NCBI RefSeq assembly: GCF_900215605.1
Contig: NZ_OBEL01000007.1
Location: forward strand, 1-64,000
Direction of reading: 5' to 3'
Length of the DNA stretch: 64,000 bases
Source of the DNA: Cohaesibacter gelatinilyticus
Lineage (GTDB): Bacteria > Pseudomonadota > Alphaproteobacteria > Rhizobiales > Cohaesibacteraceae
The stretch's first letter is position 1. The number at the start of each line of letters is the position of its first letter. Shown here in pieces: positions 1,374 through 12,265 of the stretch. The notes beneath the pieces are model-generated. The model was not told where the DNA came from. It saw only the letters and a program-made list of their open reading frames with translations, and searched no databases. The position numbers and the translations under genes were made by a program.

Positions 1374-1627
1374 TCAAGCTGGGTTCGATAGGACGGGATC
1401 GCATATGCACCCGGCAGCACACATGATCTTCCTCTGCCCATCGTCCAGAAAGATGGCCTCATCGGGAAACATGGCCAGATCCGTGCAATCTGCAGTCACT
1501 GCGCAAGTGAGCAGGGCCGCGTCGATGGCACCAGTCGGGCCATCGTCAGCGCGCGGTTCCACCGGCAGGGTCATACCTGACAACAGCAACGCTGCAACGC
1601 GAAACCCTGCTCTCTTGCGCCCCCATC
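1374..1627 (-). pseudogene. Possible frameshifted small secreted protein, ninth gene of the envelope operon
   Basis: On the minus strand an ATG overlaps the TGA stop of the vWA gene (TGATG) and is followed by a run of five G. With one G fewer, the frame would read an 84-residue protein starting MGRKRAGFRVAALLLSGM, a convincing signal peptide (basic start, hydrophobic core, small-residue end), followed by a mature part with five cysteines. As written, the ATG frame leaves this reading after the G run, and only an internal TTG (1587-1589) opens the main frame. This may be a slipped homopolymer, a sequencing error or chance. Its position as the last gene of an operon of secreted proteins favours a real gene. 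Confidence 0.35.
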
Positions 1628-3089
1628 AGAACTGATCCCGGATGTGAACACGATCAACAAACAGGATGCTTTCGCCCTCTGATGGGGCCCGCTGAGCCGA
1701 CATGACTTGCAGGGTCGCAGGCGCGCGAAGCAAGGTCACGGGCTCAGTGGAGATGGAAACACGTTCCTCGGGCTTATCCTTGTAAGCCGGGATGAGCGTA
1801 TCCAGCCGGGCAGAATAATCCCGCCCGCGTTTCTGCAAGGTCAGGCTGGTCTGCCCACCTTGCGCAATGGCTTCGACAATCTCTGCCGGATGGGTGGCAC
1901 CGCGATCACAAAAACCGCGCATATCAATCGCTTCGAAGACGTCCTTGCGGAACTCCACCCGTTGCGGCTTGCCATCTTTGGGGCCACTCAGATTAGTCAG
2001 CATCACAACAGGTCTGAGGCCACAACCGGTCCGCTCAAACAACAAGGATGCCGTGACCTGATTATTCTGATCACTATAGAGACCGATCAATGGCTCATCC
2101 CGACCTGTTTGGGCTTTCAGGGTGAAGTCGATGCTCAGATCAAAGTCACCAGAGGGCAAATCCTGCTCCAGCAACATGCGGTTCAGGGCCTTGTCTTCCT
2201 CAAACCAGTGATGCTCGCTCACCGCCGCCAGAATGAGATTGCTGTCCGTGAGCTTGCGCAAGATGGGCGCATCCTGCAGAACCTTCCAGTGCGCGGCCAG
2301 ATCCGGCGCATCGAAATGATCTTCAAAGAAAGCCTTGGCCGGTTCTGGCAGCCCAGATGGTTCTGATGGCTCTGGCGGAGCAAAGTCATCATCCGATGGC
2401 GCAATCTCATCAATCTGGCTGACTTCTTCCAGCGCCCCTGCCAGCTCCTGGGCATTGCTGGCACTGAGATATCGGCCGCCGGTCTGATCGGCCATACATT
2501 GCAATTGCGCGATATCCTCTGGCGCGGCCACATCAAAGCCAACCACATGGGCGGTGAAATTCACCCCATCGGCTTCCAGCTGGCTTGCCACCGCGCATGG
2601 ATCCAGATTGCAGGTCTCCTTGCCATCGGAAACCAGAATGACGGTCGCCGCTTCCTCGGTATGGCGCAATTGCCGCGCTGCTTCCTTCACCGCAGCGCTG
2701 AGCGGTGTCTTACCCTTTGGCGAGATGGAGCGAACCGCCCCGCGCACCGCATCCAGACTGCCGGGCGCCGGGCTGACCAGCGTTTCGATATCATTGCAAT
2801 CGCCCTTCACCCGATGCCCATAAGCCACCAGACCCAGCGAAGAAGACGGGTCCAGCTGCCCCAGCAGATCAGACACAACATCACGGGCAATCTGGATCTT
2901 GGCCTTGCCATCAATCTTGCCCCACATGGAGCCCGATGCATCCAGCACAATCACTTTGGCCGGACTTTGGCTGGCCTTGGCCTGATCACCGATGCTGGTC
3001 TGCGCAACAACAGGGGCAGACATCATGGACAGAGGCAATCCGGCAAGCAGGGCGGAGCGCAGCAAAGCATTTTTGAAAAATTCAGCCAT
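1626..3089 (-). CDS. Exported von Willebrand factor A domain protein with C-terminal beta-sandwich domain
   Basis: 487 residues. A signal peptide (about 1-30, ending APVVAQ) is followed by a vWA domain (about 45-225) with an intact metal-binding MIDAS site: D50-A-S-G-S, a Thr in GKTPLSAA and a downstream Asp in VSDGKETC. vWA domains bind protein ligands through a divalent metal. An acidic Pro/Glu linker (about 225-255) leads to a C-terminal domain of about 230 residues that resembles the C-terminal half of the next upstream gene product: FxDxFDxxDLxxxW at its start, then gDF, TG, IGL and GCG positions in the same order. I read this as a LamG/concanavalin-like sandwich. It starts 11 bp after its upstream neighbour and is the last intact gene of an eight-gene operon with LemA and DUF3137 proteins. 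Likely periplasmic; ligand unknown. Confidence 0.8.
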   Translation of the reverse strand: MAEFFKNALLRSALLAGLPLSMMSAPVVAQTSIGDQAKASQSPAKVIVLDASGSMWGKIDGKAKIQIARDVVSDLLGQLDPSSSLGLVAYGHRVKGDCNDIETLVSPAPGSLDAVRGAVRSISPKGKTPLSAAVKEAARQLRHTEEAATVILVSDGKETCNLDPCAVASQLEADGVNFTAHVVGFDVAAPEDIAQLQCMADQTGGRYLSASNAQELAGALEEVSQIDEIAPSDDDFAPPEPSEPSGLPEPAKAFFEDHFDAPDLAAHWKVLQDAPILRKLTDSNLILAAVSEHHWFEEDKALNRMLLEQDLPSGDFDLSIDFTLKAQTGRDEPLIGLYSDQNNQVTASLLFERTGCGLRPVVMLTNLSGPKDGKPQRVEFRKDVFEAIDMRGFCDRGATHPAEIVEAIAQGGQTSLTLQKRGRDYSARLDTLIPAYKDKPEERVSISTEPVTLLRAPATLQVMSAQRAPSEGESILFVDRVHIRDQF

Positions 3090-3100
3090 GGTCCCGCCTC

Positions 3101-4438
3101 CTAATTGGTTGAAAGGGAATAATGTTCGACCATCACGACGGCTTCGTCCTGATCGTGAGAGCCTTCCGAGATATGCAGGAAGGCATTGGAGAGAGGCTCA
3201 AAATGGCTGAACTCATCGCTGACAAAGCGCAAAGGCTGATCCTTGCCCACTTCCAGTTCGGCCCGATAGAAAAGCCCGCTCTTGGCAAGGGACAGAACAG
3301 CCCCTTCCTTCTGCAGACGAGCGAGAATGGCATCCGCCTTCTTGCGTGGCTCCTCCCCACAATGGCTATGCAACCATCTATCCTTGAACAGTGAATATTC
3401 CACCAATGTGGTGTGCGAGCGCTCTTCCATGCCACGCAACGGGCGGCGATTTTCGACCGTCATCCAAAGATTGTGACCACAGCCATCCTTGCGCATCATC
3501 AGATTGGCAGCGAGATAGCGGTCTTCAGACTCGCGCAAGCCAATGGAGACTTTCTCATGGCCGGTCTTGATATCGATCCGTGCCTTGGTCTCGATGCGAA
3601 AATCCTCATCCGGAATAGCTCCATCGCGCAGAAACAGATTGCTCAGATCACTATTTTCCAGATGCTCGGGATGGCGGCTGCGATTGATCACCATCAGCTC
3701 GCCATTCTCAACCAGATAGAGATTGCGATCCTCATTCTCGACGCGCCAGCCAGCACCCAAGTCACTACCATCAAAATCCGCCTTGAACGCAGTCAATTGC
3801 GCAGGCTTTGACGGCTCAACAATAGCTTCTGTCTGACCTTGAGTAGGGGCAGGCGCCGCTTCAGTTTGCGTGGATGCCTGCTGATCCGGTTTGGCTGGAG
3901 CCGATTGATCTGACGTTTGCTCCGCAGCCTTCTTTGGAGCCTTCAGGGTTGTGTCCGCCTTGCCATCCAGCAAGGACCAGGTGCCCGCAGCGTCTTCACC
4001 GGTGATATTGACGATCTGCATGCCGACGCCATTTTTGATCACATCGATCTTCAGCAGATTGGACTTGCCCTCATTGCGCACGATCACCAGATAGCGGCGG
4101 CTGTCATTGGGGCCATCTTTTGCCTTGCCGGAAATCTTGTAATCCTCGACCTTTGCCGTTTTGCCCCCGGTCAGTGGATGCACCCGTTTGCGCAAGGCAT
4201 CGAGCTTCAGCATGGATTGATATTCAAAGAAAGGCAGACGCATTCCGGCATTCTTGATCACGCCGGGCATGCCAAAGTCAGTCATGGTCTTATGGGCCGT
4301 GAAGAGTTTTTCCAGCATGTCCTTGCCTTCATCGGCAAGGGCGGCAGGCGAGGTAATCAGCGGCAGGCAAAGCGCACTTGCCAGACCAAGGCGACGGGCC
4401 AGTTTGCCGGGTTTGAATTGTGAAATATGAGAAAGCAT
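3101..4438 (-). CDS. Exported protein with C-terminal beta-sandwich (LamG-like) domain, LemA-operon partner
   Basis: 445 residues from the ATG at 4438, chosen because GGAG precedes it and because a longer in-frame start (4546) would run into lemA. A signal peptide (about 1-35, ending AALA) precedes an N-terminal region of about 150 residues with no recognised family. A Gln/Pro/Ala/Thr-rich linker (about 185-235) joins it to a C-terminal domain of about 205 residues beginning FKADFDGSDLGAGWRV. The same domain type ends the neighbouring vWA protein. Both contain a GCG motif followed by MxxN, so a paralogous relation is likely. It lies 25 bp after lemA. Function unknown; the context suggests a periplasmic binding or structural role in the LemA/DUF3137 envelope module. 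Confidence 0.7.
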   Translation of the reverse strand: MLSHISQFKPGKLARRLGLASALCLPLITSPAALADEGKDMLEKLFTAHKTMTDFGMPGVIKNAGMRLPFFEYQSMLKLDALRKRVHPLTGGKTAKVEDYKISGKAKDGPNDSRRYLVIVRNEGKSNLLKIDVIKNGVGMQIVNITGEDAAGTWSLLDGKADTTLKAPKKAAEQTSDQSAPAKPDQQASTQTEAAPAPTQGQTEAIVEPSKPAQLTAFKADFDGSDLGAGWRVENEDRNLYLVENGELMVINRSRHPEHLENSDLSNLFLRDGAIPDEDFRIETKARIDIKTGHEKVSIGLRESEDRYLAANLMMRKDGCGHNLWMTVENRRPLRGMEERSHTTLVEYSLFKDRWLHSHCGEEPRKKADAILARLQKEGAVLSLAKSGLFYRAELEVGKDQPLRFVSDEFSHFEPLSNAFLHISEGSHDQDEAVVMVEHYSLSTN

Positions 4439-4463
4439 GTCAGTCTCCGGGCTTGCGGGACAA

Positions 4464-5039
4464 TTACAAATCAATGGAAGGGGCGGTTTGCATGGCGGCC
4501 AAATCGGCTTCGGGCAGTTCGAAGGATTTGCTGCGTTCAAAACCATGACGCGGGCCGATCATGTTGCCGGGAAAGCTCAAAAGCCGCGCATTATAGGCCT
4601 GCACATTGGAATTGAAGATCCGGCGCGAGGCCGCAATCTGATCCTCGGTTTCTTCCAACTGCTTTTGCAGGGTTTCGATATTGCCCGTGGCCTTGATATC
4701 GGGATAAGCCTCGGTATAGCCAAAGATGCCTTGCAAGCCAGAGCTCAAGGCCACTTCCGCTTCGCCGATGGCATCACGATCCTCCCCCGCCAGGGCAGCA
4801 ATAGCTTTTTCACGCGCTTCCAGAACACGATCCACAAGTGTCTCTTCGTGAGACATGGCGCTTTTCACGGCCTTGACCAGACCCGGCACCAGATCATGGC
4901 GACGCTTCAGCTGCACCTGAATGCCATACCAGCCCTCCTCCACCTTGGTGTGACCGGTGGCAAGGCCGTTGAAGCTAATGATATAGATGAAAGTGAGAAG
5001 TCCGCTTGCCATAAGCAGCACGACGATAAGTGCAAACAT
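4464..5039 (-). CDS. lemA: LemA family membrane protein
   Basis: 191 residues. One N-terminal membrane segment (about 2-24) is followed by a helical domain with the LemA hallmark around VEEGWYGIQVQLKRRHDL and VPGLVKAV. LemA proteins are anchored by one N-terminal helix with a coiled, mostly alpha-helical domain. They often sit next to DUF3137 or TPM-domain genes, and their molecular role is poorly defined. Here lemA begins 5 bp after the DUF3137 gene and is followed by two exported sandwich-domain proteins, which suggests one assembly at the inner membrane. Confidence 0.85.
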   Translation of the reverse strand: MFALIVVLLMASGLLTFIYIISFNGLATGHTKVEEGWYGIQVQLKRRHDLVPGLVKAVKSAMSHEETLVDRVLEAREKAIAALAGEDRDAIGEAEVALSSGLQGIFGYTEAYPDIKATGNIETLQKQLEETEDQIAASRRIFNSNVQAYNARLLSFPGNMIGPRHGFERSKSFELPEADLAAMQTAPSIDL

Positions 5040-5044
5040 GGGCC

Positions 5045-6076
5045 TTACTCCGCATAAATTTTGAAGGATTGAGCCGCTTCGGCAAAGTCTTCAATCAGGT
5101 TGATCAGATAGTCATCCAGCACGTCGTCATCTTCGCTCATGATGGTTTGATATCCGGCGAGATAGACAATATCGCCATCGATGATGACCTGCGCTTTGTA
5201 GCGCTCCCAAAGATCGATCAGCACCGTCTGCAAAGCTGGTGTCAGCGTGCGAATGAGCGGCAAGCGCGAGGCTTCGCCATCCGGATCATCCGTGACACTG
5301 ATATGAAAGATGTCATTGAAGGCAACAGACTCGGTCTGCACATCCTTGCGGTTTTTCATGACCGGAGGCTCGGCGAACAATTTGGCACGAATCCCGATAT
5401 CCCGGTCCAGCCGATAGGCAGTCACCATGGTGAAGGTATAGCCAACATCCTGGCCGGTGCGTTTGGCTTCCGGCCCCCCGAAAGTTTGAAGGCTACCGGC
5501 CGCCAGCCAGAAAGGAAGGCCATAGCGCCGCGTGCGCCCCCAGAAGATGGCCCGCACAACGGTCGGAATCGGTTGCCCGAACCGCGCTCGCATCAAATCC
5601 GGCACGGTCGCATAAGCTGGCTCAATCTTGGGATCATAGCGCCGCTCACGCTCATAAGTTCCATCACTCTTCTTCTTTGTGACATCACTATCCGATGGTG
5701 GCCTGACAGTCACAAAGCCCCAGCCATGGCGCTCCGCTACCTTGAAGAAGCGATAGCGCTCCCGGGCATGCTCTTTGCTCAACCAGGAAAACAGTGCCAA
5801 CAGCAGGACCGAAATTGCCAGAGCCGGCCCTGCATAATAAGCCGCTGTAATCCAAAGAAAACCGATCATGATGCCAACCGCCGAGAGCAGCAGCACCGTG
5901 ACGACAAAGCTTTGGATCTTGGCCGGAACCTTGATGCCCTTGCCGGGATCTTTGAATGTCTGACGCTGAAACGGCACAGTCCCTTTGAAAGGATCCCACA
6001 TAGTGGAAGGAGGCTTGGAGTTGGCCTGCCCGGTTGCAGGCGCATCTGATGAAACAGCTTGGTCAAGAACACTCAT
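5045..6076 (-). CDS. DUF3137 family membrane protein
   Basis: 343 residues from the ATG at 6076, which overlaps the upstream stop as ATGA. The longer frame to 6268 would lie inside the upstream gene and is rejected. Two adjacent membrane segments (about 55-77 and 80-98) form a hairpin, followed by a soluble domain of about 240 residues. That domain contains an FWGR stretch and TESVAFNDIFHISVTDDP, then LTPALQ and IDGDIVYLAGY, the pattern I associate with DUF3137. Proteins of this family pair with LemA in many bacteria, and the pairing holds here (lemA starts 5 bp downstream). The biochemical activity of the family is not established. Confidence 0.7.
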   Translation of the reverse strand: MSVLDQAVSSDAPATGQANSKPPSTMWDPFKGTVPFQRQTFKDPGKGIKVPAKIQSFVVTVLLLSAVGIMIGFLWITAAYYAGPALAISVLLLALFSWLSKEHARERYRFFKVAERHGWGFVTVRPPSDSDVTKKKSDGTYERERRYDPKIEPAYATVPDLMRARFGQPIPTVVRAIFWGRTRRYGLPFWLAAGSLQTFGGPEAKRTGQDVGYTFTMVTAYRLDRDIGIRAKLFAEPPVMKNRKDVQTESVAFNDIFHISVTDDPDGEASRLPLIRTLTPALQTVLIDLWERYKAQVIIDGDIVYLAGYQTIMSEDDDVLDDYLINLIEDFAEAAQSFKIYAE

Positions 6077-6747
6077 TGGCTCACTCCCACATAGCGCAAG
6101 GATGCCCAGCCTCGATAGCTGCCAATGGACAGAGCCGCCCAGCCATTTTGACGTTTGTGAATGGTCAGCCCGCAGGTGCCAGCCTTGATCCGCGCCAGAA
6201 CCCCATAAGAGCCACCCGGACCAGCCCGCAGATTGAGCAGGCCATTTTGCGAAATGTTCTGAACACAATGACCACCTTGTCCAAATCCGGGTCCGGCCTT
6301 TTTGGGCGCGCGGGAGACATCATGGGTGCGAGGCTGAAAGCTCAGATGCGCCACATCGATATCGTGACGATTGTCCACCACTCGACAGCCCGAGCGTGCC
6401 AGCACCGGCGCGGTGCCGGTGAGCACGAAGGTCTTGCCGGGGCGATAATCGCCATAGACATAATAGGGGATGGGTTTACAGCCCTTGCGAAACAGGCGCG
6501 CCTGCCCATCCATATAAGCCCCGCCATCCAGCTTGCCGGTGAACAGGATCGTGCCTTTGCGAATGCCAATATTGGATAAGCCCGGACGCGGCAGACGATA
6601 TTTGATGGTCACACGCTGCCCATTGCGGGTCAGCTCCACCGCCGAACCATTATGATTATAGACCCGCGTCTCTGCCATGGCCGGTAACGCAACCGATAGT
6701 GTCATGGCCAAGGAGGCAAGGCCGATATGTTTGATCACTTGGTTCAT
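6073..6747 (-). CDS. Exported protein with C-terminal bacterial SH3-type domain
   Basis: 224 residues with a clear signal peptide (about 1-25, ending ALPAMA). The middle part, with four cysteines, has no recognised family. The C-terminal 60 residues read LLNLRAGPGGSYGVLARIKAGT...GWASLRYV, the usual SH3_3/SH3b pattern, which in exported bacterial proteins often serves peptidoglycan or protein binding. It overlaps the DUF3137 gene by 4 bp and follows the next SH3 gene by 10 bp, so translation within the operon is probably coupled. Confidence 0.7.
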   Translation of the reverse strand: MNQVIKHIGLASLAMTLSVALPAMAETRVYNHNGSAVELTRNGQRVTIKYRLPRPGLSNIGIRKGTILFTGKLDGGAYMDGQARLFRKGCKPIPYYVYGDYRPGKTFVLTGTAPVLARSGCRVVDNRHDIDVAHLSFQPRTHDVSRAPKKAGPGFGQGGHCVQNISQNGLLNLRAGPGGSYGVLARIKAGTCGLTIHKRQNGWAALSIGSYRGWASLRYVGVSQ

Positions 6748-6757
6748 TATTCTCTCC

Positions 6758-8335
6758 CTAGCGATCTAAAATTGGATCTAGATAAATGCCGATGACAAAG
6801 CCACGCAGGCCCTCGTGATCAATCTCGCACCAGCCACGGGCCAGAAAACGCCGCTTGGTTCCCAGATCGGCCCGATCAAAGGCCACCGGATTGATATTGG
6901 GCCTGCATCCCAGAACCAGAATCTCGCTGGCATTCCAGGCGAGCGTGCCGACAGAAGAGGACGAACGATCAGGGGCAGAGCGCACCGCCAGCTGACGCCC
7001 TTCCGGCACATTGCGCATGCGATAGGCCGGGCCAGTCACGCCAGAGCCGGGCATATCGCCTTCAATCGGCTCCTCCGCCGCAAAGTCGGACGGATCGCTG
7101 GTGATGCCTGATGATTGGCCCGATGCTTGGCCAGATGATTGATCAGAAGAGCCGCCAGTGGCAGGTCCACTCTTGTCCCGTGTGAGCCTGACAAGCTGCC
7201 AGTGACGATCCTGTATCAAGGTGCCCTCAAGCTGATCAGCCGCACCATTGGCAAGAGACAGAAGCAGGCGAGGTTTGCCCTGTTTCTGCCCCACAAAACC
7301 AAGAGCCAGATCCAGAGCAGACGGTCCTTCCTGCATCAGCAGGATGCCGACATTTTGCTGCATACCGCCCCATTTGGCGGCCAGACGACCACTGCCCATC
7401 ACGCTGCCATTGCTTTGACGATTGAAACGCAACTTGCCCAAGGCCTTGCCATTCTGACTGCGTAAGTACCAGAGCCCGGTCAGGCCAAACATGGAAGATG
7501 ATGCCTGGCTGGGTCGCGCAGGGCGATAAGGGCTAATGCCCTGTCCACTCGCCTGAAAACCACCAGCCTGTTTGCCACCAGCATTGCCAGTCCCAGACCA
7601 ATTAGCCCCAGACCTTTGGGACCATACGGCTTTGCGCTCATCCTTCTTGATCGGATAATTGCGGGCAAAGCCCTTGTCCGCCAAAACACCAAGCATCCGC
7701 TTGGGTCGCTCGACCAGTTCTTTCAACCGATCCGGCCCGCACATTGCCAACTGACAAAGATGCTTGGTCTCACTGGCCCGTCCAACCAGGTCCACACCGC
7801 GCGCATAATGAATGAGCCGTGCCCAATAGCCAGTGGGGCTGCCAGCCTTGCGATCCAGGATCAGCAGACGACTGGGGCGCTCATCGGCAAAGCGAAAAGC
7901 AATCACCGCACGATTTCCGGTATAGCGCACCCCTGCACTTTTGATATCAAAGGCCATTCGGTCGCCAGAGGCAAAGCGCTTGGCCAGCTCATCACAAAAG
8001 GCCGGGTGCAGACTGCGCGGGCATTTGGGCTTGGCTTTCAAGGCAAAGATCGACAATTCGGCCTGTCCGGCGCGCCCGCCTTTCAGCTGATCCAGATTGA
8101 GCGTGATCTCGATATCCCTGGACCCGCTCTGGATAGAATAGCCCCCATGCCACGGCCCAAAGGCCTGTTGTGCATGAACAGCGGTGGCGGCAGCAGAAAC
8201 CAACCCGACACAGACGGTCAATGCAACAACAAGGGCATAAAAGACCCGGCGCAGGACGGACGAAAGATAGGAACAGCATGTCTGCAAAACAGCTCTCCTT
8301 CCAAAATCAAAATGATGATTTGGCAAGGCGGTCAT
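6758..8335 (-). CDS. Large exported protein with C-terminal SH3-type domain
   Basis: 525 residues. The start region is long: a hydrophobic signal segment lies at about 30-50 and ends in a small-residue AVHAQQ cleavage site, so the real start may be a later codon. The body (about 55-400) has two halves that both mention low-complexity Gly/Ser/Gln linkers (about 245-290 and 395-430), including a tract rich in SGQ. The last 90 residues contain GRQLAVRSAPDRSSSSVGTL and ARGWCEID, a variant SH3-like layout. No enzyme motif was seen. It is separated by 30 bp from the upstream small secreted protein gene and by 10 bp from the downstream SH3 gene. Function unknown; periplasmic location likely. Confidence 0.6.
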   Translation of the reverse strand: MTALPNHHFDFGRRAVLQTCCSYLSSVLRRVFYALVVALTVCVGLVSAAATAVHAQQAFGPWHGGYSIQSGSRDIEITLNLDQLKGGRAGQAELSIFALKAKPKCPRSLHPAFCDELAKRFASGDRMAFDIKSAGVRYTGNRAVIAFRFADERPSRLLILDRKAGSPTGYWARLIHYARGVDLVGRASETKHLCQLAMCGPDRLKELVERPKRMLGVLADKGFARNYPIKKDERKAVWSQRSGANWSGTGNAGGKQAGGFQASGQGISPYRPARPSQASSSMFGLTGLWYLRSQNGKALGKLRFNRQSNGSVMGSGRLAAKWGGMQQNVGILLMQEGPSALDLALGFVGQKQGKPRLLLSLANGAADQLEGTLIQDRHWQLVRLTRDKSGPATGGSSDQSSGQASGQSSGITSDPSDFAAEEPIEGDMPGSGVTGPAYRMRNVPEGRQLAVRSAPDRSSSSVGTLAWNASEILVLGCRPNINPVAFDRADLGTKRRFLARGWCEIDHEGLRGFVIGIYLDPILDR

Positions 8336-8365
8336 GCCGCCTCGCTGCTTACGCAGTTGGCATGC

Positions 8366-8929
8366 TTACTTGCTGCAAACATCCCGGCCCTGTTTCACCA
8401 CATAGCGATAACCACTTGGGCATGTCAGCTTTCGGAAATGAGGCGCAGGAAGCACCTGGAGACTACCCCGTGTCCGCCGCCAGGAAACCTCGCAGACATC
8501 GCGCTTGCGAGACATGCTCATGTTGTTTCCACCATCCACAAACATCGTATAGACAGCTCGGTGCTTGTTGCCATTGTCGCCCGATCTCTGAGGACAGAGC
8601 GTTCGAGTGGTTTTGGCCTTTTGCGCCCGGCAAGGCAGGCCACTGGCCACACATGTCTTGCGGGCTCCACCGCGACAGATAAGCTTACGTCCCGGTACAT
8701 GCGCCCATTGAGCATAGGCAGCATTTCCAAAACGACTATAGGCAACATTGAGAAAAGCCTGCACAGCATTTTTTTCAGCTTTGCTTTGCCGAAGCGCCGT
8801 CTTGCCCGTAGCCTTCATCACATGCACGCAACCTTTGGCCTTTGCTGGTTCTGACATCATCAAGGGCATCAGAACCATGGCAGCAACAAGCAAACGCAAG
8901 GAATTGGTCAGGTTATTTGATCGTCTCAT
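8366..8929 (-). CDS. Small exported cysteine-containing protein (paralogue of the next gene upstream)
   Basis: 187 residues from the ATG at 8929, chosen because a GAGGGTGGG stretch precedes it and the longer start at 8962 would overlap the upstream gene by 22 bp. The signal peptide is about 1-31 (LLVAAMVLMPLMMSEPAKA). The mature part contains a short helix-like block AEKNAVQAFLNVAYSRFG followed by a Cys...Cys...PCR pattern, then further cysteines near the C-terminus. The same order (charged A-rich block, aromatic, V, YG or FG, then C...C...A-x-PCR) occurs in the 133-residue protein encoded just upstream. I recognise no named family. Confidence 0.6.
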   Translation of the reverse strand: MRRSNNLTNSLRLLVAAMVLMPLMMSEPAKAKGCVHVMKATGKTALRQSKAEKNAVQAFLNVAYSRFGNAAYAQWAHVPGRKLICRGGARKTCVASGLPCRAQKAKTTRTLCPQRSGDNGNKHRAVYTMFVDGGNNMSMSRKRDVCEVSWRRTRGSLQVLPAPHFRKLTCPSGYRYVVKQGRDVCSK

Positions 8930-8940
8930 CACACCCACCC

Positions 8941-9342
8941 TCACTTCCTGAACCAGGTACAACGATTGGATTTCGCCGTTTGATAATCCGGCTCAGGCAG
9001 ACACTTGTTATTGACAGAGAGATAGTTGTTCTCGGGACGACGACATGGACGCGCAATGATATAACAGCGATATTTGCTTCCAAGTATTTCGCAGGTCTTG
9101 TTGTTCGAGGACTTGATAGCCCGAACCAGCCCCATGGTCTTTCCATACTTGTTGCGCACCACATCTGCCCAAGCGCGTTTCGCCTTACGGATGGCCTTGT
9201 TGCGGGTGTAATCCGTTGCAACGCCTCGCGCTGCATGAATGGTGCAGACCTTGCCAAAGGCAAAGGATGGCGTGGTGACAAAAACGGACAAAGCCACAGC
9301 CAGACCGGCTGCTGCCAAAATGCATTCTTTCTTCAATTGCAT
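8941..9342 (-). CDS. Small exported cysteine-containing protein, first gene of the envelope operon
   Basis: 133 residues with a signal peptide (about 1-29, LAVALSVFVTTPSFAFG). The mature part carries AIRKAKRAWADVVRNKYG, CEIL...YRCYIIARPCR and a C-terminal RCTWFRK. It resembles the neighbouring 187-residue protein in motif order, which points to an ancient tandem duplication. As the first gene of the operon it should have the promoter upstream of 9342. An inverted repeat CCGAA-TT-TTCGG at 9371-9382 lies about 30 bp upstream and may be an operator. No known family recognised. Confidence 0.6.
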   Translation of the reverse strand: MQLKKECILAAAGLAVALSVFVTTPSFAFGKVCTIHAARGVATDYTRNKAIRKAKRAWADVVRNKYGKTMGLVRAIKSSNNKTCEILGSKYRCYIIARPCRRPENNYLSVNNKCLPEPDYQTAKSNRCTWFRK

Positions 9343-9468: not shown

Positions 9469-9484
9469 ATATGGAATTCCATAT
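9469..9484. promoter_or_regulatory. Perfect 16-bp palindrome between the envelope operon and luxR
   Basis: ATATGGAATTCCATAT is fully symmetric and lies in the 304-bp non-coding gap between two divergent genes, about 163 bp upstream of the LuxR-type gene. LuxR-type regulators bind 16-20 bp dyads, so it is a reasonable candidate operator for the LuxR solo. Nothing else in the gap looks coding. Confidence 0.4.
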
Positions 9485-9646
9485 GAGCACTGCAGCATTT
9501 CAGGGCCAGATTCCGACAAATATTTGATTTTGTAAATGAAATAAGAACTTGAATCCTTTGCATCTTTGAAGTGTAATTTGTAGAAAATTTGCACATCCAA
9601 TTTCTTCCCCTTGGGAAAACCAATTTATTTCCTCGGAGCCAGACAA

Positions 9647-10414
9647 TTGCAAAAACCAATTGCGGATGACCCGCTCTTGTCCCTGACCGAAAGCCTTTCC
9701 GGCGTTACATGCGTGAATGAAGTCTGGCAAAGGGCCGGCAAGTTTCTGGACAGCAATGGCATAGATCTCCCGATCTATATGTTCATGCGCCCAAGCGCGC
9801 CCGAGGACCGGCCTCTGGCCATGGCCAACATGCCCAAATGGTGGATGGATTATTATCTGGATGAGGACCGCGCCCGCCACGATCCCTTCTTCAAGACCTG
9901 CACAACCTATACCGCCTTCATGACCGGCGCCGATTATCTGGACGACAATCAGCATATGCTGGAGAAAGATGAGATCCGCTTCATTCAGGAAGCATCCGAG
10001 ACCGGTGTGCGCAGCGGCCTGTCCAGTCCGGTAAAATTGATCAATCCGGGTCATTTCGGTGGTTGGAATTTCGGCTCCAGTCTGAAGCGGACCGAGTTTG
10101 ACAAGATCACCCAACTCAATGGTCAGAGCTTGCGCCTGGCTGGCTTCATCATTCATGATCATTTGCAGGAAGCAGCCTTCCGCCAGATCGATCAGGATCA
10201 GTCACAGATCCAGACTGGCATCCTGTCCAGTCGCGAGCGGGAATGCTTGCTTTGGCTTGCAAGCGGTTTCAAATCCGCCCAGATAGCAGAAAAACTAGGT
10301 CTCGCCTTGGTCACCGTCGACATGCATTTCAAGAATGCCCGCAAGAAGCTGAATGCCGCGACACGCGAAGAAGCGCTAGCCAAATCCATTATCAATGGCG
10401 AAATCAACTTGTGA
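9647..10414 (+). CDS. LuxR-type regulator with autoinducer-binding-like domain (LuxR solo)
   Basis: 255 residues from a TTG at 9647, preferred because GGAG stands 8 bp before it; an upstream in-frame TTG at 9611 lacks a binding site. The N-terminal domain (about 20-165) has the layout of acyl-homoserine-lactone binding domains. WWMDYYL and HDPFF match the conserved W, Y, D and P of TraR/LasR, and a Gly occurs in SGLSS. The tryptophan expected about 14 residues after the Asp-Pro pair appears replaced (YTAFMTG). The C-terminal HTH (about 185-245) reads LSSRERECLLWLASG...IAEKLGLALVTVDMHFKNARKKL. No luxI-type synthase is in the window, so it may sense an outside or altered ligand. It stands alone, divergent from the envelope operon. 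Confidence 0.8.
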   Translation: MQKPIADDPLLSLTESLSGVTCVNEVWQRAGKFLDSNGIDLPIYMFMRPSAPEDRPLAMANMPKWWMDYYLDEDRARHDPFFKTCTTYTAFMTGADYLDDNQHMLEKDEIRFIQEASETGVRSGLSSPVKLINPGHFGGWNFGSSLKRTEFDKITQLNGQSLRLAGFIIHDHLQEAAFRQIDQDQSQIQTGILSSRERECLLWLASGFKSAQIAEKLGLALVTVDMHFKNARKKLNAATREEALAKSIINGEINL

Positions 10415-10786: not shown

Positions 10787-12265
10787 ATGTTGAAATCATT
10801 AAACGGAAATAGTCAGTCTATCCTGGATGCGCTTGGTCGATCCCAGGCAATGATTGAATTCAAGCCAGATGGAACCATCCTGACAGCCAATGAGAATTTC
10901 CTCGGTGCTGTAGGCTATTCACTGGAGGAAATTCAGGGCCAGCATCATCGTATGTTTGTGGATCCTGCTTACGCAAACAGCAATGAATACAAGAGCTTCT
11001 GGTCCGATTTGGCCGATGGCAAATTCAATGCAGCAGAATTCCAGCGGTTTGGCAAAGGCGGCAACGAAATCTGGATTCAGGCTTCCTACAATCCGGTCAT
11101 GAACAAATCAGGCAAGGTCGTACGGGTCGTCAAAATTGCAACCGATATCACCGAGCAGAAACTGCGCATAGCCGATATCGAAGGCCAGATCAATGCCATC
11201 AATCGCTCTCAAGCCGTGATTCATTTCGAACTGGATGGCACCATTCTGGATGCCAACGAGAATTTCACCGGTGCCGTTGGTTATTCCCTTTCCGAGATCA
11301 AAGGTCAGCATCACCGCATGTTTGTGGACCCATCCTATGCGGCCAGCAGTGAATATCGCCAATTCTGGGAAGAGCTCGCACAAGGAAAATTCAAGGCGGA
11401 TGAGTTCAAGCGCTTTGGCAAAGGCGGCAACGAGATCTGGATTCAGGCTTCCTACAATCCGATCTTTGATGCAGCGGGTCGCCCGTTCAAGGTCGTGAAA
11501 TTTGCCACCGACATCACCGAGCAAGTCATGGAACGTCAAAGACGTGCCGAAACACAGGCCAAGATCGATGATGATTTGAAAGCAGTGAGCGGCTCGATAG
11601 CCGGCGCGGTTGAGCAAGTTGCAAGCGTTGCTTCCGCGTCTGAGGAAACCTCATCCAACGTGCATTCCGTTGCTGCTGCCTCGGAAGAGCTGGTTGCCTC
11701 CATTGGCGAAATCAGCCGTCAGGTGCAGGTGGCACTGGAAGTCTCGCAAGATGCCGTGGGCGAAGCCTCCCGCTCCAGTGAAATCATGTCCGGCCTCTCC
11801 GAAGATGCCAAGACCATCGGTTCCGTGATCGAGTTGATTGAAGGCATTGCAGGCCAGACCAACCTGTTGGCCCTCAACGCTACGATTGAAGCTGCCCGAG
11901 CGGGCGAAGCAGGCAAAGGCTTTGCCGTTGTGGCATCCGAGGTGAAGAACCTTGCTTCACAGACCAGCAAGGCAACGGAAGACATTTCCTCTCAGGTCAA
12001 TTCCATTCAGGAAACAACTCAGGAAGCGGTTTCCGCCATTGAAAAGATCATGTCGGTCATCGGCAATGTCGGCGAGATTGCATCAAGCATTTCCACCGCA
12101 GTCGAGCAGCAATCCTCGGTCACCAATGAAATCTCCTCCAATATGCAGTCCGCTGCACAAGGAGTAGAACTGATCACAGCCAATATGCAGTCCATCTCTT
12201 CTGCAACTGGTGAGATCGACACGGCGACCTCAAATATTCGGGAAGCCTCTCGTTCTCTGGCCTGA
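10787..12265 (+). CDS. Soluble methyl-accepting chemotaxis protein with two PAS domains
   Basis: 492 residues without any membrane segment. Two closely similar PAS domains (about 15-128 and 137-250) share [26 protein letters not shown] and [16 protein letters not shown], each ending in a DITEQ PAC-type strand. They are so alike that a recent internal duplication is likely. The C-terminal signalling domain (about 265-492) holds the canonical tip [21 protein letters not shown] followed by [13 protein letters not shown]. Such receptors work in the cytoplasm and signal to CheA/CheW. Many use a PAS-bound cofactor for redox or aromatic sensing, but the ligand here cannot be told. It is a single-gene unit with its own terminator; no che genes are nearby. 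Confidence 0.9.

Follow-up and report, generated by a model that had tools for sequence, protein, structure and literature searches.

The locus and its closest described relatives

The described proteins closest to the locus reported here come from several systems. In PMC4902198 MamQ is proposed to be a hub of the cytoplasmic membrane, DUF3137 appears in two papers of the open literature searched and is a table entry in one of them, PMC10434189, and the mycobacterial trehalose monomycolate transport factor TtfA has one predicted transmembrane (TM) helix (PMC6593404). To these are added lectin and carbohydrate-binding module (CBM) jelly rolls of the ConA-like type (the GH43 C-terminal domain, CBM66 and legume lectins), and LuxR proteins without an adjacent synthase, relatives of RhlR, CviR and LasR. 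A paper describing LemA, a DUF3137-like protein, a von Willebrand factor A (vWA) protein and a lectin-type protein as one system was not found in the open literature searched. Here we describe an operon of this composition in the first 64,000 nucleotides of contig NZ_OBEL01000007.1 of Cohaesibacter gelatinilyticus (the window, which begins at the contig start; the host genome is 5.2 Mb). Comparison of gene content strongly supports its membership in a conserved gene module, whose core is LemA and the DUF3137-like protein, with vWA, jelly-roll and SH3 genes and a regulator mostly alongside.

Eight minus-strand genes, A to H, fill positions 1626–9342, and the operon is real. The spacings from A to H are 11, 30, 10, -4, 5, 25 and 11 bp. 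The original prediction of eight tightly packed same-strand genes is therefore confirmed (-4 to 30 bp), except that there is one overlap and not several. The unit also extends one gene beyond the predicted span, to a divergent LuxR-type gene at 9611–10414 on the plus strand; this gene, a palindrome beside it and the specific subclass of the LemA protein had all been missed. The accompanying interpretation, an inner-membrane base of LemA and DUF3137 with exported periplasmic partners, is partly supported, as set out below.

Gene F (4464–5039, minus) codes for the predicted LemA protein (139.9 bits against Pfam PF04011, cut-off 26.2), which matches PDB entry 2etd at 8.1e-25 and has a single N-terminal TM helix (residues 3–21). 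Its score against the MamQ family (NCBIfam NF040966) is 58.9 bits, below the cut-off of 250, and Pfam and NCBIfam scans of the eight genes returned no other magnetosome-type families. In contrast to the MamQ setting, the neighbours of F are exported vWA, jelly-roll and SH3 proteins and the product of gene E.

Gene E (5045–6076, minus) codes for a protein with two TM helices (58–76 and 82–100) and a soluble domain, a layout common to the DUF3137 family. The window protein has no match to Pfam DUF3137 (PF11335) up to E 10. Among the E proteins examined (those of the window and of loci L006, L013, L026 and L028, plus a draw that included L029), the cut-off is passed only by that of L029, at 26.4 against 26.1 bits, and the L028 protein has no DUF3137 match. 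Comparison of the E profile with the DUF3137 profile by hhalign gives E 5.6e-6 (probability 85.6), and by this homology and the two-helix layout E is a remote relative of DUF3137. The predicted DUF3137 membrane protein thus stands as a two-helix relative of the family, but not as a Pfam match. Two loci, L014 and L026, each carry E plus a separate DUF3137 gene. As for the earlier statement that LemA and DUF3137 are frequent neighbours, the 150 genomes of the order that were scanned have 11 places with DUF3137, four of them with LemA no more than 4 kb away; one of the four is itself an E protein.

Recurrence of the LemA–E core

A scan of genome contigs gave seven loci, of which one is from a sister Cohaesibacter metagenome-assembled genome (MAG) and three are from Roseibium/Labrenzia. 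Of 397 genomes searched in the order, eight had a match; seven of these were counted (including the host genome; one has two copies). Eleven further loci, together with those of the window and the sister MAG, make up the 13 compared here, which form 10 groups once the loci of Cohaesibacter (two) and of Roseibium/Labrenzia (three) are each merged. The fetched stretches are about 19–21 kb, and 16 kb for the window. E adjoins a divergent LemA gene in all 13 loci, although the LemA of L028 is truncated; the core recurs in all 10 groups, which belong to a single taxonomic order. A vWA gene is present within the fetched stretch of 12 loci, on the same strand as E and LemA in eight and on the opposite strand in four. 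Twelve loci have a LuxR-type helix-turn-helix (HTH) regulator and six have G-type proteins. In the Roseibium locus L012, there is a 4-bp overlap at each junction between the counterparts of H, E and F.

Outside Cohaesibacter, E shares 27–43% identity with the window protein. Protein distances of E correlate with those of LemA (0.918; nine groups, leaving out L028 for its truncated LemA) and of the vWA protein (0.839; eight groups, leaving out L028 and L013), and these correlations fit joint inheritance. The original prediction had tied its fate to co-occurrence of the exported genes with lemA and DUF3137 in related genomes. Exported genes of the vWA, jelly-roll and SH3 types do accompany LemA and the DUF3137-like gene there. 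Within the fetched stretches of the 13 loci, A and B were seen in the two from Cohaesibacter only.

The core is linked to one subclass of LemA. LemA is present in 110 of the 150 genomes, in a common class of 114 places (165.9–206.2 bits) and a divergent class of 12 places (at most 146.5 bits; F itself has 140.2), with the border drawn after the scores were seen and with two pieces of one interrupted gene (G463) among the 12. Considering the best 150 vWA places, and noting that the genomes are not statistically independent, an H-type vWA gene lies within 20 kb of eight of the 12 divergent LemA places and none of the 114 common ones (0/61 in genomes with a listed vWA; Fisher 4e-10), although six of the eight are loci fetched earlier whose vWA proteins were rows of the query, which weakens the test. 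The two independent positives, a second locus in G527 and one in G522, are LemA–DUF3137 loci; among the 5 divergent places not seen before, 2 are thus positive, compared with 0 of the 114 common ones (P 0.0014). The divergent negatives are G043, which has E but no vWA, G041 and G463. That 12 of the 13 E loci have a vWA gene is independent of the query rows. The two new loci (L042 and L043) each have a LuxR-type HTH match; positions 8233–13745 of L042 make up a true LemA–DUF3137 locus with a pair of vWA genes, and the jelly roll is part of the second.

In the sister MAG (G017, locus L006), genes A to H and the LuxR gene follow one another in the same order, with protein identities of 64–98%. 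DNA similarity stops approximately 150 bp past H and at the end of the LuxR gene, and the flanks beyond are unrelated. The ratios of nonsynonymous to synonymous substitution rates (dN/dS) are 0.019–0.171 for the eight genes (0.158 for A and 0.138 for B), which indicates purifying selection. In addition, of the 17 other genomes in the genus (one of them 64% complete), 16 gave no E match. Because the order is kept, similarity ends at the edges of the block, selection is purifying and presence in the genus is patchy, the block behaves as a discrete operon, probably acquired horizontally.

These data also bear on the possibility of a passive cluster, in which a genomic island keeps unrelated envelope genes together. 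In G017 a tRNA-Arg gene, an integrase and a transposase-like gene flank the operon on one side, where a luxR–luxI pair also lies (L047 2102–12457, L006 1619–3776). The first three would suit such an origin, as would the abundance of vWA genes and of SH3-type matches. The same core nevertheless recurs across the 10 groups at the low E identities given above, tied to one LemA subclass, and the genes are tightly spaced. Conserved order, unrelated flanks and purifying selection make the operon more than a chance assembly, and the present data disfavour a passive cluster, which we regard as highly improbable.

The soluble domain of E has a TtfA/YbjN-like predicted fold, and this likeness raises the possibility that the module aids transport of envelope lipids or precursors. 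E would then be a TtfA-like cytosolic cofactor that serves an inner-membrane transporter together with LemA, and the exported proteins would be downstream receivers. TtfA and E share 10% identity and differ in the number of TM helices, no MmpL partner has been identified for E, and a search of PDB sequences with the E profile up to E 1 returned no TtfA chains. Mycolates are not known from this bacterial group. A candidate transporter, an SSF-like membrane protein named by eye, is present in five of the 13 loci; none was seen in the loci of Cohaesibacter and Roseibium or in L013, L014 and L028 (other transporters were not surveyed), and the L025 copy has no Pfam family at E 0.1. The fold likeness is also silent on the substrate, and we consider transport aid unlikely.

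The exported proteins and the regulator

Genes A (8941–9342, minus; 133 aa, 7 Cys) and B (8366–8929, minus; 187 aa, 8 Cys) code for the two small Cys-rich proteins of the original prediction, both with signal-like N-termini. Neither matches a Pfam or NCBIfam family over cut-off, and their likeness to each other is weak (E 0.16). Of the two predicted exported SH3 proteins, the two-domain product of D (6073–6747, minus) exceeds the SH3_3 cut-off with its C-terminal domain (30.1 against 27 bits), but the C-terminal SH3-like domain of C (6758–8335, minus; the start may be nearer 8288) has a weak match, below cut-off (15.5 bits). Wall material is a frequent ligand of bacterial SH3 domains. Relatives of C occur in seven of the 13 loci (in Roseibium as the C-terminal part only) and relatives of D in five (in L010 as the N-terminal domain only). 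Single-domain matches to D are widespread (103 of the 150 genomes), and its full-length matches above 300 bits are three places, all at E–LemA loci and all rows of the query.

The predicted pair of exported sandwich proteins, one with an intact vWA site, corresponds to G (3101–4438, minus) and H (1626–3089, minus). H matches VWA_2 at 51.5 bits (cut-off 27), and the columns of its metal-ion-dependent adhesion site (MIDAS; D, S, S, T and D, from D-x-S-x-S, T and D) are invariant in all 11 aligned vWA domains, window included. This conserved motif is the sole basis on which metal binding by H, and with it the metal dependence proposed earlier, is predicted. G and H share a homologous C-terminal domain (BLASTP 5e-13), which is predicted as a lectin-type (ConA-like) jelly roll, in agreement with the lectin and CBM folds named above. 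No Pfam family is convincing for it; GH43_C2 appears at E 0.28 in one of 12 members. A domain of glycan-binding type is what the strongest evidence on fold indicates, and the peptidoglycan scaffold once suggested is only one option. Matches to the jelly-roll profile occur in 13 of the 150 genomes. The eight best places (above 280 bits, in four genomes) are at E–LemA loci and are all query rows, and at 12 of the 13 weaker places a listed vWA gene is no more than 2 kb away.

The best match of the predicted jelly roll is a phage Dit module, tied with GH43, and LemA scores 47.5 bits against a virion-structural family of PHROG. Together with a possible island setting, these matches could indicate a membrane-stress or phage-protection device built from a LemA hub and exported binding parts. 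None of the eight proteins matched a PADLOC anti-phage model at E 0.1, however, and the presence of LemA in so many genomes of the order makes a phage origin unnecessary. A device of this kind is very unlikely, though slightly less so than a passive cluster.

The divergent LuxR protein (its TTG start comes from a mechanical listing) matches Autoind_bind at 52.3 bits and GerE at 53.6 bits. This is the domain pair of N-acyl-homoserine lactone (AHL) type and that of LuxR proteins without an adjacent synthase. Its PDB relatives are RhlR, CviR, LasR and TraR, and the aligned W, Y and D are presumably pocket residues. No luxI is found beside it; the host and sister genomes each have one luxI, elsewhere and next to its own luxR-like gene. 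In the intergenic region between the LuxR gene and A there is a perfect 16-bp palindrome, ATATGGAATTCCATAT (9469–9484), 126 bp from each listed start, which we infer to be a candidate LuxR operator. It is the sole match in its own genome at up to one mismatch. The sister MAG has it at the same place with one change, within a stretch approximately 74% identical. At up to one mismatch there is none in G006 or G011 and one in G014, elsewhere.

Other loci differ in that the regulator is a fusion of an alpha/beta-hydrolase with a LuxR-type HTH, in either domain order, instead of or alongside LuxR. Six have an N-terminal hydrolase, a PAS-like region and the HTH (L010 6818–8650, L014 11136–12941, L025 6075–7898, L026 7365–9188, L027 7458–9293 and L029 ~5923–7644). 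By eye, against the usual sequence patterns, these six have neither a G-x-S-x-G elbow nor His where expected, so the hydrolase fold, apparently without catalytic Ser and His, has perhaps been recruited as a sensor. The permuted form, with the HTH before an epoxide-hydrolase-like domain, stands upstream of vWA or E in L011, L012, L013 and L015, which have a LuxR-like match in addition. These four have Asp in the nucleophile position (aligned with epoxide hydrolase) and keep His. GerE is above the Pfam cut-off in the N-terminal-hydrolase protein scanned (L010) and below it in the two C-terminal-hydrolase proteins scanned (20.0 and 20.7 against 23.5 bits). Taken together, the regulator domain types suggest acyl- or small-molecule sensing as a common input. 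Similar imperfect palindromes, also candidate operators, lie upstream of two related hydrolase–LuxR genes (L010 8722–8739 and L025 5888–5903).

Two further features adjoin the unit. A ninth small Cys-containing open reading frame (ORF), degraded or variable in length (1467–1622 or 1467–1628, minus; L006 7005–7169, minus), starts at the stop of H behind a poly-G tract whose length differs between the two species. It was recognised by tblastx conservation with L006 and by reading the frames: the overlapping ATG of one copy is not in phase with the conserved frame, and a stop interrupts that frame in the other copy. This ORF may be a relic, or a gene that varies by strand slippage. The LuxR gene has as its neighbour a gene at 10787–12265 (plus) for a protein that resembles a chemotaxis receptor by eye, with repeated PAS-like units; this region has no DNA match in the sister-MAG flank.

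A possible inducible envelope module

Our tentative preference, at a little less than even chances, is for a horizontally moving envelope module switched by LuxR, in which an inner-membrane base made up of E and LemA would handle exported vWA, lectin and SH3 proteins. The mechanism is drawn by analogy with the MamQ hub and with TtfA. An acylated signal would cause the LuxR protein to bind the central palindrome and turn the operon on. E and LemA would form the base, with the TtfA/YbjN-like domain of E in the cytosol and LemA as the organising hub, as proposed for MamQ. The base would then assemble, retain or help to deliver the exported proteins, which may bind glycans through the jelly rolls, metal-dependent ligands through the vWA MIDAS and the wall through SH3. 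The outcome would be an inducible, glycan-binding envelope or surface layer. The two TM helices of E and the single helix of LemA fit the putative base of the original prediction.

Several observations weigh against this reading, beside the query rows in the vWA–LemA test. The vWA family is common (83 of the 150 genomes), and the jelly roll also adjoins vWA genes away from LemA. Among the 13 loci, L013 has no vWA gene, L028 has no regulator and a truncated LemA, and L010 has an opposite-strand ORF between LemA and the genes that follow. Genes A and B, found in two of the 13 fetched stretches, appear to be lineage-specific, and co-inheritance is not proof of contact. The charge bias of E is weak and LemA shows none, which leaves the topology of LemA ambiguous, and PMC3905215 cites the LemA C-terminus as predicted outside. 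Finally, the likeness of E to TtfA is one of fold only, from a model with a pLDDT of 76, and came with no sequence match in the PDB search.

The ConA-type domains, the conserved MIDAS, the LuxR gene with its palindrome and the patchy presence (one of 17 congeners) would also suit extracellular adhesion or recognition, in which the vWA and lectin proteins would be quorum-switched secreted adhesins for algal or host glycans, and LemA and E would be their maturation factors. The only export signal is the signal-like N-terminus (outer-membrane anchors were not searched for), and bacterial SH3 domains are often wall binders; this explanation is the best of the alternatives but still improbable. A broader version of the envelope module would make LemA and the DUF3137 superfamily the halves of an unnamed inner-membrane machine. 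The DUF3137-type half would carry a TtfA/YbjN-like cytosolic client domain, LemA would be the hub, and the machine would build an inducible vWA–lectin layer switched by acyl signals through AHL-type LuxR or hydrolase–LuxR HTH proteins. We consider this generalisation doubtful, somewhat more so than adhesion.

At this locus one particular subclass of LemA occurs with a DUF3137-like partner, with vWA and lectin-type proteins that are exported, and with a probable switch. It offers a tractable setting, one that most congeners lack, for tests of the function of LemA and DUF3137, in which a regulator, a candidate operator, a putative membrane base and its clients can be named.
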